Shown piece after piece: positions 13,551 to 62,410 of a stretch of 64,000 nucleotides of DNA. Source of the DNA: Halomonas binhaiensis (GTDB lineage: Bacteria; Pseudomonadota; Gammaproteobacteria; Pseudomonadales; Halomonadaceae); contig NZ_CP038437.2 in NCBI RefSeq assembly GCF_008329985.2, positions 4,712,001 to 4,776,000 on the forward strand. Reading direction: 5' to 3'. The position numbers were made by a program, and so were the translations under genes. Under the pieces are notes generated by a model that worked only from the letters and a program-made list of their open reading frames with translations, had not been told where the DNA came from and ran no database searches. The stretch's first letter is position 1; every line of letters starts with the position of its first letter.

Positions 13551-13648
13551 GCTACGAGCTACGAGCTACGAGCTACGAGCTACGAGCTACGAGCTACGAG
13601 CTACGAGCTACGAGCTAAGAGCTAAGAGCTAAGAGCTAAGAGCTAAGA
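13551..13648 (+). repeat. Heptamer tandem array 1 (glmU-glmS)
   Basis: Nine uninterrupted copies of GCTACGA (13551-13613) are followed by five of GCTAAGA (13614-13648), all in register. The array begins 4 bp after the glmU stop and ends 28 bp before the glmS start. Conceptual translation gives a repeated SYELRAT-like peptide in any frame, because three heptamers make seven codons. No such gene is likely. The whole family of arrays in this window fits AGCYNNN. Confidence 0.95.
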
Positions 13649-13676
13649 GCTCAATGCATTTTTCAGGAGCTAGTAT

Positions 13677-27112: not shown

Positions 27113-27154
27113 AGCTATAAGCCATAAGCCATAAGCCATAAGCTATAAGCTATA
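27113..27154 (+). repeat. Heptamer tandem array 2, left arm
   Basis: Six in-register heptamers: AGCTATA, three AGCCATA, then two AGCTATA. They are flanked by degenerate copies (AGCTGTAG before, AGCGAAG after). The orientation is AGC-forward on the plus strand, opposite to the right arm. Confidence 0.92.
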
Positions 27155-27198
27155 AGCGAAGGAATCTTTACACGGTTCTGTGAAGCTTTTGAATCACT

Positions 27199-27322
<124 letters not shown>

Positions 27323-43312: not shown

Positions 43313-43669
43313 ATGACGCTGAAACTGATGCTGTGGCTGTTGGGTGTCATGCTGAAACGTGCTAACCGAAAGAAACCACGTTTCCGTGAACGGCTTGCAG
43401 AGATGGGTGATCTGGATTGGGGTATTGCTACCGAGGACCTTTCCATCGCCCGCCACTATCGAATGAGTCAGGACGAGATGATCAGCAAGCCGGGTCTTCC
43501 GGTGGACCTTGATCTGGAACTGCGTTTTCGTGATGCCCAGAGCGCAGTCGCACTACTCAAGCGCCCCACTCAGCGTGCTTTTCTCGATGCCCTGGTTGAT
43601 GGGCGTCTGCGTGTGGTGGGTGATGCCAAGGATCTGGATCGGTTGCAGCGCCTGCTCAAGCATCTTTGA
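43313..43669 (+). CDS. Small protein of unknown function
   Basis: A 118-residue protein whose start (ATG at 43313 after GAGGCG) gives a short hydrophobic N-terminus (LKLMLWLLGVMLKRA) followed by a soluble body. The C-terminal part (LDLELRFRDAQSAVALLKRP, then a final GDAKDLDRLQRLLKHL) vaguely resembles SCP2-like lipid-carrier folds. That is a weak impression, not an identification. Its stop codon TGA is the first base pair of heptamer array 3. It lies between the HU gene and the recG repeats and could be part of neither operon. Confidence 0.65.
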   Translation: MTLKLMLWLLGVMLKRANRKKPRFRERLAEMGDLDWGIATEDLSIARHYRMSQDEMISKPGLPVDLDLELRFRDAQSAVALLKRPTQRAFLDALVDGRLRVVGDAKDLDRLQRLLKHL

Positions 43670-43738
43670 GCTACGAGCTACGAGCTACGAGCTACGAGCT
43701 ACGAGCCACGAGCCACGAGCCACGAGCCGCGAGCTAAG
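43669..43738 (+). repeat. Heptamer tandem array 3
   Basis: Ten in-register units: five AGCTACG, three AGCCACG, one AGCCGCG and one AGCTAAG, then a degenerate AGTCGTA. It shares AGCTACG and AGCTAAG with array 1 near glmS. It begins on the last base of the preceding stop codon. Confidence 0.93.
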
Positions 43739-43742
43739 AGTC

Positions 43743-43888
43743 GTAACCCACCTCGAATCCTGGCTTTTGTCTGTGTCCGATGAGGCAGCATTGACTGCTA
43801 GAAGCTAGAAGCTAGAAGCTAGAAGCTAGAAGCTGTAACCCACCTCAAACCCTGGCTCTTGTCCGTGTCCCATGGTGCAGCACCGATC
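43743..43888 (+). repeat. Duplicated spacer of about 48-54 bp between heptamer arrays
   Basis: Two imperfect copies start at 43743 and 43835, 92 bp apart, both opening GTAACCCACCTC and continuing to GCAGCA, with about seven differences over 48 bp. Each is followed by its own heptamer array (4 and 5). The spacer is not coding in any frame I can support. Confidence 0.85.
43797..43834 (+). repeat. Heptamer tandem array 4
   Basis: Five copies of GCTAGAA (43797-43831) plus a partial unit, directly between the two spacer copies. Confidence 0.92.
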
Positions 43889-43889
43889 T

Positions 43890-43945
43890 GCTCGAAGCTC
43901 GAAGCTCGAAGCTCGAAGCTTACAGCTCGTGGCTTGAAGCTTATA
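43890..43945 (+). repeat. Heptamer tandem array 5
   Basis: Four copies of GCTCGAA, then GCTTACA, GCTCGTG, GCTTGAA and GCTTATA, all in register. The last unit overlaps the recG stop codon (complement of TTA at 43941-43943), so the recG coding end lies inside the array. Confidence 0.9.
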
Positions 43946-46022
43946 CCTGGCCATAACGACCCGCTTCTTCTCCCAGCCAACGACGAATCAATGGCTGTCC
44001 GGCATTTGCGTCCCATGCCAGCAAGGCATCGGCCAATGGCGTGATACGTGGTAGTAGATCGGCATCACGCTCGAGATCGGCAATCTTCATCTGGGCAAGC
44101 CCCGTCTGACGAGTTCCCAGTACTTCACCAGGCCCGCGAATCTCCAGGTCGCGCTCGGCAATACGAAAGCCGTCGGTGGTTTCACGCATGACGGCCAGGC
44201 GTTGTCTCGATGTCTGTGATAGAGGGGGGTGGTAGAGCAATACGCAGAAACTTGCGGTACTTCCTCGCCCTACTCGGCCACGTAACTGATGCAATTGCGA
44301 CAGACCGAGGCGCTCGGGGTTTTCGATGATCATCAAGCTGGCATTGGGGACGTCCACTCCGACCTCGATCACCGTGGTCGCGACCAGAAGATCCAGTTCC
44401 CCTGACTTGAAGGCATCCATGGCCTCGGCTTTCTCGCTGGCTTTCATACGCCCATGAACAAGCCCGATGGATAGCTCTGGGAGAGCTTCGGCAAGATCCT
44501 CCCTGGTGACTTCGGCAGCCTGGCAGGTCAGTACTTCGGATTCCTCGATCAGGGTGCATACCCAATAGGCTTGCCGACCTTCGGCGCATGCCGCGCGAAT
44601 TCGGCGGATGACCTCTGGGCGACGTTCGTCGCTGATCACGGCGGTAGTGACAGGTGTGCGCCCCGGGGGCAGTTCATCGATGACAGAGACATCCAGGTCC
44701 GCGTAGGCACTCATGGCGAGCGTACGCGGGATAGGGGTGGCTGTCATGACCAGTTGGTGTGGAGTAAGGCCGCCAGCTTCACCCTTTTCTCGTAGCGATA
44801 GCCGCTGATGCACGCCAAAACGGTGTTGTTCATCGATGATGGCCAAACCGAGGCGCTGGAAGCTGACATCATCCTGAAAGATGGCGTGGGTTCCGATGAT
44901 CATTCGTGCCCGGCCATCGCTGATGGCGGCCTTGGTATCAAGGCGTGCCTTGCCCTTGAGCTTGCCCGATAGCCAAGCCACATCGATATCCAGCGGCTCG
45001 AACCAGCTGCAGAAAGTGCGATAGTGCTGCTCTGCCAGCAACTCCGTAGGGGCCATCAAGGCTGCCTGGCAGTCACCGGCAATGGCGGTCAAGGCTGCCA
45101 TTGCTGCCACCACTGTCTTTCCCGAGCCGACATCGCCTTGTACCAGACGCAGCATGGGCGCTGGACGAGCCAGATCCTGGCCGATTTCATCAAGTACCCG
45201 ACGCTGAGCGGTAGTCAACGAGAATGGCAACTGAGCGAGAAAGCGGGTCTTGAGACTGCGTCCGCTGGGGAGTGCTGGCGCTCCATCATGCTGAATGCGC
45301 AGGCGCACTTCTCTCAAGCTCAACTGGTGGGCAAGGAGTTCTTCCATGGCCAGTCGGCGAGAGGCTGGGTGAAGGCCCTGACTGAGAGCCTCGGCATCGC
45401 TGTCCGGTGGTGGGTGATGCAGCGTTTTGAGGCATTCCAGCAGCGGTGGCAGAGAAAAGCGCTGACGCAGATGCTCAGGAATATGGTCCGGCAAGGCATC
45501 GGGAGCCGATTCCAGAATTTCCATAGCCTGGTCGATCAGGGCACGCAGGCGCGCCTGGTTGAGGCCTTCGGTGGTGGGGTAGATGGGCGTAAGGTGGTCT
45601 TCTACCGGGGGTTCGTTGTGACCCAGCAGGCGATACTCGGGATGATAGATTTCAAGCCCCGTTGCCCCGGCGCGGGCCTCGCCAAAGGCGCGCACCCGTA
45701 CTCCAGGTTGGAACTGCTGCTGCTGGGCGGGAGAGAAGTGAAAGAACCTCAAGCTGAGAATGCCGCTACCATCGCGCAGGCGTACCAGCAAGCTTCGCCG
45801 CCGTCCGCGCACCACTTCGGCTGCGGCGACCTCTCCTTCGACGACGGCTTCATGGCCACTACGCAAAGTGGCAATGGGGGTGATGCGAGTGCGGTCCTGA
45901 TAGCGCAACGGCAAGTGGAACAGCAGGTCAGCAATGCTCGCTATCTTGAGCCGGGCAAGTTTGAGGGCCAGGGCCTCTCCGACCCCCTTCAGCGCCGTGA
46001 CCGGGCTGCTCAGTTTACTCAC
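43941..46022 (-). CDS. recG: ATP-dependent DNA helicase RecG
   Basis: A 693-residue helicase that reverses stalled forks and processes branched intermediates. An N-terminal wedge/OB domain precedes the helicase core with Walker A GDVGSGKT (about residue 302), the DEAD-type box DEQH, TATPIPRTLA, and motif VI region HQLRGRVGRG. The length equals E. coli RecG (693). Its last codons run into heptamer array 5. It is divergent from nothing and reads toward the small protein at 43313. Confidence 0.95.
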   Translation of the reverse strand: MSKLSSPVTALKGVGEALALKLARLKIASIADLLFHLPLRYQDRTRITPIATLRSGHEAVVEGEVAAAEVVRGRRRSLLVRLRDGSGILSLRFFHFSPAQQQQFQPGVRVRAFGEARAGATGLEIYHPEYRLLGHNEPPVEDHLTPIYPTTEGLNQARLRALIDQAMEILESAPDALPDHIPEHLRQRFSLPPLLECLKTLHHPPPDSDAEALSQGLHPASRRLAMEELLAHQLSLREVRLRIQHDGAPALPSGRSLKTRFLAQLPFSLTTAQRRVLDEIGQDLARPAPMLRLVQGDVGSGKTVVAAMAALTAIAGDCQAALMAPTELLAEQHYRTFCSWFEPLDIDVAWLSGKLKGKARLDTKAAISDGRARMIIGTHAIFQDDVSFQRLGLAIIDEQHRFGVHQRLSLREKGEAGGLTPHQLVMTATPIPRTLAMSAYADLDVSVIDELPPGRTPVTTAVISDERRPEVIRRIRAACAEGRQAYWVCTLIEESEVLTCQAAEVTREDLAEALPELSIGLVHGRMKASEKAEAMDAFKSGELDLLVATTVIEVGVDVPNASLMIIENPERLGLSQLHQLRGRVGRGSTASFCVLLYHPPLSQTSRQRLAVMRETTDGFRIAERDLEIRGPGEVLGTRQTGLAQMKIADLERDADLLPRITPLADALLAWDANAGQPLIRRWLGEEAGRYGQV

Positions 46023-48010: not shown

Positions 48011-48066
48011 AGGACTCTCTGCGGGATGAAGGACTCTCTGCGGGATGAAGGATTATCTGCGAGATA
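48011..48066 (+). repeat. 19-bp tandem repeat at the 3' end of thpR
   Basis: Two perfect copies of a 19-bp unit (48011-48029, 48030-48048; AGGACTCTCTGCGGGATGA) and a degenerate third (48049-48066). The third copy overlaps the stop codon and the last codons of thpR on the minus strand. Confidence 0.85.
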
Positions 48067-57075: not shown

Positions 57076-57456
57076 ATGAGCAATGACCGCTTTTCTCCCG
57101 AGCAATTGGCGAGACAATGGGTGGAGATTCAGGAGCAGGAGCAGCCTGGCCATTGGGTATGGCGCGAGATATCAGCCGATATCGCCCCAAGGCGCCAGCC
57201 GCGTCGCCGCCTGTACCTGAATGCCGATGGTCATGCCATGCTGCTGAAAGGGGCCCCTGACGACAGGCTTGAATGCGAGTCTGAAGGACACTGGAGCTGT
57301 GTCGGTCAGGTGCTTAGCTTGACGTTGCCGGGGTGGGAGGGCGACTACCAGATCATCCAGGTAACAGCGGATACCCTTGTACTACAGTCACAACAACAGT
57401 CACAACAACAGTCACAACAGCAGTCACTCCAGCCAGGAGACGGTGGGGATCACTGA
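57076..57456 (+). CDS. Small beta-rich protein upstream of an M43 protease
   Basis: A 126-residue protein with no signal peptide or membrane segment. The body has regular W/G spacing (GHWVWREIS, RRRLYLNADGHAMLLKG, GHWSCVGQVLSLTL, YQIIQVTADTLVL), the look of a small beta-barrel of the lipocalin-like kind. The C-terminus is a low-complexity run of QSQQ encoded by a 12-bp tandem repeat (57385-57420). The ATG at 57076 was chosen. A GTG at 57043 is possible. It precedes the protease by 25 bp. I do not recognise the family. An inhibitor or chaperone of the protease is inferred. Confidence 0.6.
   Translation: MSNDRFSPEQLARQWVEIQEQEQPGHWVWREISADIAPRRQPRRRLYLNADGHAMLLKGAPDDRLECESEGHWSCVGQVLSLTLPGWEGDYQIIQVTADTLVLQSQQQSQQQSQQQSLQPGDGGDH
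57385..57427 (+). repeat. 12-bp tandem repeat encoding QSQQ
   Basis: Three copies of CAGTCACAACAA (the last with one A to G change), plus a partial fourth, in frame. Gain or loss of a unit keeps the frame and only changes the glutamine-rich tail length. Confidence 0.85.
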
Positions 57457-62225: not shown

Positions 62226-62357
62226 TGGCTGTTAATAGACGCCATCCATGCCCTCTCGAGACGTGTTCTTGCCATCATACATGCGCTGAAGAGCCTTCAG
62301 ATATATGCGGCGCCAACACAAACTGTGCTGTATCGAGCCTTGGTGTCTCTATAAAAA

Positions 62358-62410
62358 GTATCTCTAACGAAGTATCTCTAACGAAGTACCTCTGGATGTA
62401 TCTCTGGGTG
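62358..62410 (+). repeat. 14-bp tandem repeat upstream of the tautomerase gene
   Basis: Two perfect copies of AGTATCTCTAACGA, then degenerate copies (AGTACCTCTGGAT and GTATCTCTGGGTG). It ends about 75 bp before the tautomerase start. Confidence 0.8.

Follow-up and report, generated by a model that had tools for sequence, protein, structure and literature searches.

The window, by which we mean the whole stretch of 64,000 nucleotides analysed here, belongs to a genome of 4.895 Mb (window included), and the closest named relative of a protein neighbouring the site is a Halomonas MAG (98% identity). The site studied is the gap between two convergent genes, a 118-aa reading frame and recG, and it is laid out as follows.

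43313 to 43669, + strand: 118-aa ORF without Pfam or NCBIfam match; its stop overlaps the first array
43668 to 43740, + strand: left arm of AGCTACG, AGCCACG, AGCCGCG and AGCTAAG heptamers (YRAG sense on the + strand), beginning inside the TGA stop
43743 to 43796, + strand: core copy 1, the first spacer (covariance-model match 43759-43809, E 1.2e-8, a model seed)
43797 to 43834, + strand: middle array of GCTAGAA, directly 3' of core copy 1 (TRF)
43835 to 43890, + strand: core copy 2, the second spacer, 92 bp after copy 1 (covariance-model match 43850-43902, E 7.9e-12, a model seed)
43890 to 43920, + strand: perfect part of the right arm, GCTCGAA, inverted with respect to the left arm (TRF)
43921 to 43940, + strand: degenerate heptamers of the right arm, up to the recG stop codon (direct reading)
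43941 to 46022, - strand: recG, convergent, for the ATP-dependent DNA helicase RecG (NF008163, 1093.2 bits, cut-off 796)

The stop codons facing the gap lie at 43667-43669 (118-aa ORF, + strand) and 43941-43943 (recG, - strand), and the entire gap between them consists of three heptamer arrays and two spacers; the element reaches both stops, as a first-pass annotation of this DNA had stated. TRF resolved the arrays as GAGCTAC (10.4 copies, 43668-43740), GCTAGAA (5.4 copies, 43797-43834) and GCTCGAA (4.4 copies, 43890-43920), the first of which proved on direct reading to be mixed, mostly AGCTACG and AGCCACG with single AGCCGCG and AGCTAAG units. The 92-bp period that the annotation had described was confirmed: the spacers start at 43743 and 43835, lag 92 gave the most matches among lags 80-104 when the spacer region was compared with itself, and 45 of 54 aligned bases are identical, including 41 of the first 48, in agreement with the roughly seven differences it had counted. 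Its further statement that the arrays had changed unit completely does not hold for the middle and right arrays, because GCTAGAA and GCTCGAA differ at one position of seven. This difference is present in every copy of each array, which fits the local homogenisation that the annotation had proposed. The element is not a CRISPR either, as had been recognized: CRISPRs are made of constant direct repeats of ~25-40 bp separated by unique spacers, whereas here a ~54-bp segment is what repeats and the arrays are heptamers.

In a shuffle control (one mononucleotide shuffle per segment, four segments, 1.54 Mb in total), a single period-7 run of ≥18 bp was found and none of ≥21 bp. Since period-7 runs as long as those of the window are absent from shuffled sequence, chance is excluded for the arrays; they are 7-base tandem units far above chance length, like heptanucleotide LSSRs in general. 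The window contained no Rfam match and no tRNA. Between 43509 and 43808 the AGCTACG array is open in one reading frame, as ELRATSYELRAT repeats, giving a 99-aa ORF that is probably spurious; open array tails of this sort may be annotated as protein ends elsewhere. Other short tandem repeats of the window lie at 48011-48065 (19-base unit), 57384-57427 (12-base unit) and 62356-62393 (14-base unit).

A dispersed core followed by heptamers

By exact-motif and DNA searches the spacer appeared to be unique to the window, a view that profile searches overturned. The exact motif GTAACCCACCTC occurs twice in the whole genome, both times in the window, and a DNA search of the same genome with the 154-bp region returned only the region itself as significant (next best E 0.655). 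In 90 genomes of the genus, DNA searches matched 29 at E≤0.1, mostly across the heptamers; matches over the spacer were obtained twice in the relative G017 (80% over 44 bp and 72% over ~73 bp) and once in the relative G075 (E 0.097), and these, read in context, comprise the second half of the spacer with heptamers adjoining. A profile was then made of five copies (the two of the window, two from G017 and one from G075) and run on own-genome sequence, part of which consisted of stretches chosen for holding arrays. It detected non-seed copies at 4597036 (E 2.7e-6), 3904590 (E 2.4e-5) and 594848 (E 1.2e-4), the last sitting between an AGCTACG array and a GGCTTAC array, and weaker ones at 3886011 (E 0.0024) and 1810086 (E 0.031). 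The genome-wide spacer search suggested by the first-pass annotation thus had a divided outcome, with no exact copy beyond the two and diverged copies found by profile. The annotation had intended to take a spacer found nowhere else as a sign of a single local duplication; because diverged copies are present where exact ones are absent, such a test on exact copies would have misled.

A 20-base core pattern allowing ≤3 mismatches matched in 8 of the 90 genomes: 14 times in G017, three times each in the own genome, G075 and G037, and once each in G031, G041, G043 and G055, while its reversed control matched at 3 places in total. We also built a sequence-only covariance model from 27 copies, after removal of one chance match (L255, G037:C1:4641172). 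At E≤0.05 this model gave at least 69 matches in G017 (15 of them seeds), at least 35 in G037 (2 seeds), at least 16 in the own genome (7 seeds) and at least 5 in G075 (3 seeds), the seeds matching by construction. Forty of the 90 genomes had some match, 36 of them outside these four carriers (best E 0.001), more than the ~4 that would be expected were the E-values, which the tool itself calls rough, to hold. Among the matches listed, E fell below 1e-4 only in the four carriers, and many of the weak matches outside the clade cover only the heptamer side. Since strong matches among those listed are confined to the carriers, the core is, judging from these searches, an element dispersed within a small clade, outside which it may have faint relatives. 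Its consensus, ~50 bp long, reads GGCTTTTGTCTGTGATCCATGGGGCGGCACTGGACAG and is followed by CTCG heptamers.

The core and the heptamers are associated. Of the 23 pattern-found copies in the four genomes, a set that keeps L255 though it is probably a chance match, 19 have at least three phased CTYR words within 80 bp downstream and 17 have at least four; 0.5% of 2000 random 80-mers drawn from the window reached three, and phased CTYR heptamers followed 0 of the 4 core-pattern matches outside the clade. A heptamer-carrying module, as the first-pass annotation had supposed, therefore exists, its diverged core recurring at other loci here and in three relatives. In 24 copies (28 aligned, minus L255 and the same-site copies own_4597, G075_C4 and G075_C11), five of which (both window copies, G017_C30, own_3904 and own_1810) had been found with array or heptamer-side letters in the query, CTCG is retained in the heptamers that follow the core, and so, for the most part, is the G before it, while the two bases after it vary almost freely: from one heptamer to the next, identity is.67,.90,.86,.83 and.83 for G-C-T-C-G and.35 and.42 for the two free bases. 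From the sequences compared, four spared positions beside two scrambled ones should not be expected of a slipped array undergoing neutral decay. The flanks of perfect arrays elsewhere have a much weaker constant and variable pattern, with weak differences between positions.

Duplication of the module as a whole, also proposed before, is supported by tandem module-plus-heptamer units at other places. In the own genome, five model matches at 56-bp spacing, made of core tail and degenerate heptamers, lie within 2746443-2746691, and G017 has tandem clusters of model matches (for example C12:122100-122276 and C26:38306-38497). The element at 4597036 is identical to the one at the equivalent site of G017 in 121 of 125 positions, with flanks identical in 151 of 185 and 116 of 153, whereas G075, which is much closer (flanks 164 of 188 and 129 of 139), holds a different element at this site (70 of 113 aligned, 12 gaps). 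As the element is closer to that of G017 than the flanks are, elements or pieces of them have probably been exchanged between lineages or loci.

Two side observations concern the core. A weak match to model positions 3-43 (or 4-43) recurs at E 0.009-0.016 in several genomes outside the clade (G032, G011, G014, G002, G054, G085 and G013; the L283-L290 region group), and may represent either a faint relation of the core or some unrelated stretch that these genomes share. At L239, L237 and L231 of G017, palindromes that we take to be REP-like (CCCACATCCATGTGGG and similar, with CGTGTTCCCGACACGAACACG) are interleaved with heptamers; G017 itself has no PF01797 match.

Placement, conservation and predicted folding of the arrays

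We surveyed the own genome in 2.0 contiguous Mb and in 16 stretches chosen for holding listed arrays, with gene calls made in the present analysis from ORFs scored by codon usage. Forty period-7 loci were present, 36 of them of the AGC type, of which 34 are intergenic, in keeping with the mostly intergenic character of LSSRs. Where the nearest stop is no more than 30 bp away, 26 of 28 rows (rows being arrays, not all independent) have the YRAG sense on the strand of that stop's gene; the rule weakens with distance, holding for 11 of 19 rows between 31 and 150 bp and for 0 of 4 farther away. Counted once per stop at ≤30 bp, it holds for 25 of 31 stops (p 4e-4). Of the six cases that break it, five belong to convergent gaps and are near both stops, and the sixth (1130484) is a plain exception. 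The stop-side arrays lie within 10 bp of the stop in 24 of 31 cases. The Xanthomonas/Nostoc arrangement, in which the repeat follows the stop by no more than 50 bp and lies on the coding strand, was hence found here too, at the 30 bp used.

Convergent gaps hold 14 of the 34 intergenic loci, against an expectation of 18% (p 0.0015), and divergent gaps hold two, against 21% (p 0.016), counts that include the 16 array-selected stretches; the contiguous 2.0 Mb alone gave 6 convergent loci of 16 intergenic ones and 1 divergent. Arrays were also seen in 11 ++ and 7 -- gaps (36 loci). Six loci have perfect arrays in both orientations, and in each of them the + array precedes the - array. After stops without perfect arrays, YRAG phasing was weakly raised, with 25 at lag 7 and 6-24 at other lags.

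Other arrays were noted along the chromosome, over which period-7 runs look unevenly spread: the first 400 kb (G000:C1:1-400000) have no run of ≥18 bp, and the last 400 kb have 15 runs. In the window, a GCTACGA array at 13551-13651 (TRF 14.4 copies) begins 4 bp beyond a stop codon, its unit changing to GAGCTAA ahead of the next gene. At 27113-27322 lies an inverted pair, with AGCYATA heptamers, a gap of ~41 bp and 17.7 perfect copies of GGCTTAC; G075 has a GGCTTAC unit at the site matching it by coordinate arithmetic (contig 8, 267136-267231).

The recG site was followed in relatives through the 118-aa ORF. A homologue was found by tblastn at 30 of 30 loci (L050-L079, own included, the best 30 of 89 genomes matching the stretch of HU plus the 118-aa ORF), and recG adjoins in 27. 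These 27 gaps contain perfect period-7 runs of ≥17 bp in 10 cases, period 14 in 3, period 8 in 4, period 11 in 1 and none in 9. The 8- and 14-base units are unexplained by a strict 7-base mechanism; the former (GCTTGACC, CTGCTTGG, GCTTGGCC and TTGGCAGC) were read in L067, L069, L077 and L079, and the latter in L058, L063 and L076. In G017 the gap opens with an AGCTACG array at the stop codon, as in the own genome. By eye, the G037 gap has the 5' part of the core, and the G075 gap has degenerate heptamers including one GCTAGAA copy, a fragment of the core's end (CTGGACAGCTCG) and a large GCTTACC array. That the closest relative has another unit at this site also fits local homogenisation. In the order, 63 of 244 genomes (own included) and 43 of 112 genera have at least one run of five AGCY heptamers, thus the unit type is not restricted to the host genus. 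For such AGC-type scans the reversed pattern is not a clean null, because it also matches other heptamer families; in G013 the reversed control (143/140) exceeds the pattern itself (3/1).

For the window gap the predicted folding energy is -115.1 kcal/mol, against -90.7 in shuffles (z -4.43), and in the predicted structure the left array pairs with the right one. Among gaps of 80-400 nt, convergent ones with arrays have a mean predicted z of -5.5 (n=11) and convergent ones without arrays -3.2 (n=40), and the predicted folding of array-bearing gaps that are not convergent is weaker (mean z -2.6, n=17). Array-bearing convergent gaps are thus predicted to fold strongly. Across 16 genomes (gaps of ≥95 nt at the recG site, near relatives L079 and L071 removed), arms were more complementary within genomes (-31.8 kcal/mol) than between genomes (-24.8 kcal/mol), with p 5e-5 for 40-nt arms, 0.0013 for 30-nt arms and 2e-4 without the own gap; another cut-off, with 25 gaps, gave p 5e-5. 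Within the own genome, matched arms of 27 array-bearing gaps pair no better than mismatched ones (z +1.1, p 0.86), so that the covariation between genomes may only reflect each genome's own heptamer family set in inverted orientation. Own-genome gaps without arrays (the first 90 per class) gave no arm-arm coevolution (p 0.12-0.51).

No conserved RNA pairing was predicted within the core alignment, and a terminator consensus scan of the window gap found 0 (shuffles mean 0.2). Two copies, 594848 and 3886011, contain by eye a perfect terminator-like hairpin followed by TTTT, of which the first part of the core supplies the 3' half and the T-tract.

Readings of the element

We read the window site as one locus of a family of gene-end elements, in which inverted heptamer arms at stop codons surround a dispersed core, and give this reading a probability of roughly 0.58. 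In each element, heptamer arms would begin at the stop codons of the two adjacent genes or close to them, as approximately YRAG-NNN on the strand of the preceding gene, and flank the ~50-bp core; since each arm reads YRAG on the strand of its own gene, the two arms are mutually inverted. At the window site the core-plus-array module would have been duplicated once in tandem (92 bp), and each array would then have been expanded anew and homogenised locally by replication slippage, the putative motor. Cores would be copied between loci. In the transcript of either gene, arms and core may form a long, imperfectly paired hairpin by which the 3' end is terminated or protected, and the arms would be kept inverted at the stops because they form this hairpin around a core that is possibly terminator-derived. 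The hairpin role at the 3' end, suggested by predicted folding, is the weakest step of the explanation.

The alternative that survives best takes the arrays for plain heptanucleotide SSRs without function, products of slippage at gene ends that is tolerated because nothing needed is disturbed, and the 92-bp duplication for a chance unequal exchange. It is a possible reading, if rather an unlikely one. In most genomes heptanucleotides are reported to be more abundant than any other class of long SSR (Mrazek 2007, as related in the available text of PMC4679880), the unit does change between the middle and right arrays and among relatives at one site, and the failure of matched arms to pair better within the own genome agrees with it. 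Slippage alone, however, leaves unexplained the dispersed core, the constancy of CTCG beside free NN, and the stop-codon strand rule with its inverted order of arms.

The element could also be non-autonomous and mobile (a MITE, or REP/BIME-like), spread by a transposase and with the heptamers as its terminal repeats, which we consider improbable. The core copies are dispersed and many are nearly identical in G017, where REP-like palindromes adjoin them, and the likeness of the 4597036 element to G017 despite diverged flanks, with the closer G075 differing, is what a mobile element might produce. Against this, the Y1 transposase domain (PF01797), expected in a genome with REP/BIME and RAYT, had no match in any of the four carriers (G000, G017, G037 and G075) and is found in 42 of 90 genus genomes; one core copy was without match in plasmids or phages, no exact pattern match was obtained in viral contigs, and array sites coincide with those of G075 in 3 of 3 cases (one 335-kb stretch, coordinate arithmetic).

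That the site is a single local duplication unrelated to anything else, as the two exact copies and the insignificant remainder of the 154-bp search might suggest, is very improbable, being contradicted by the non-seed copies of the five-copy profile and by the similar heptamer neighbours of the diverged copies.

All together, the window site holds one copy, duplicated in tandem, of a gene-end element that is specific to a clade and based on heptanucleotide repeats.

Comparison with known repeat systems

A literature search found no publication describing these heptamer repeats in Halomonas. REP/BIME are dispersed inverted repeats of gene ends able to form hairpins, and the Halomonas elements are likewise dispersed, inverted, hairpin-capable and placed at gene ends. 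Their arms, however, are heptamer arrays instead of a fixed palindrome, and the carriers lack a Y1 transposase match.

Heptanucleotide LSSRs are tandem 7-base units for which polymerase slippage has been proposed (Mrazek et al. 2007, as cited in the accessible parts of PMC4679880 and PMC4692102). Unlike LSSRs as described there in general, the Halomonas arrays are strand-oriented, inverted and tied to stop codons and to a shared core. The TAACTGA repeats of marine Beggiatoaceae, as far as the text available to us goes (MacGregor 2015, PMC4679880), are also intergenic heptamers of Gammaproteobacteria; they have one fixed unit, in contrast to the Halomonas arrays, and lie, in the main Beggiatoaceae genome, mostly just upstream of putative start codons.

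The closest family is that of Xanthomonas and Nostoc. According to the accessible part of Rehm et al. 2015 (PMC4692102), the heptamers GGGAATC and GGGGA(C/T)T are mostly intergenic, adjacent to stops on the coding strand and few between divergent genes; in Xanthomonas the units are heterogeneous with a constant part, GGGANTN, inverted pairs number 70 in Xcc and 75 in Xac, and sites are mostly kept between the two while length and sequence vary. The Halomonas arrays resemble both families in their 7-base intergenic units, their placement at stop codons and their scarcity in divergent gaps, and the Xanthomonas ones in the constant-plus-variable unit, the inverted pairs and the conserved sites. 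The claim of the first-pass annotation that the element matches nothing known is consequently too strong, stop-placed intergenic heptamer arrays being on record in that source. The units differ, those of Xanthomonas and Nostoc being G-rich and quadruplex-forming and that of Halomonas being CGAG/TAAG plus NNN without G-tracts; in tandem, GAGCTAC, GCTAGAA and GCTCGAA contain no GGG run. Nor does the part of that paper at hand report dispersed cores or tandem core-plus-array modules.

As a Xanthomonas-type placement rule is obeyed here without any G-tract, quadruplexes cannot be its general cause. It is tempting, if doubtful, to see in the stop-codon arms of Halomonas, Xanthomonas and Nostoc a general bacterial class of gene ends, in which a constant tetramer spaced by 7 bases would be selected, read by a fold or a factor, while the unit drifts and re-expands, and which here would have taken up a terminator-derived core that disperses. 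Widespread as they are in bacteria, heptanucleotide repeats are unexplained; with its shared core, many loci and close relatives, the present family allows slippage, arm pairing and 3'-end function to be told apart by experiment in an environmental bacterium. The kind of repeat is thus already known, as heptanucleotide long repeats with the Xanthomonas/Nostoc family as the closest; new are a unit without G-tracts, a dispersed core and tandem core-plus-array modules.
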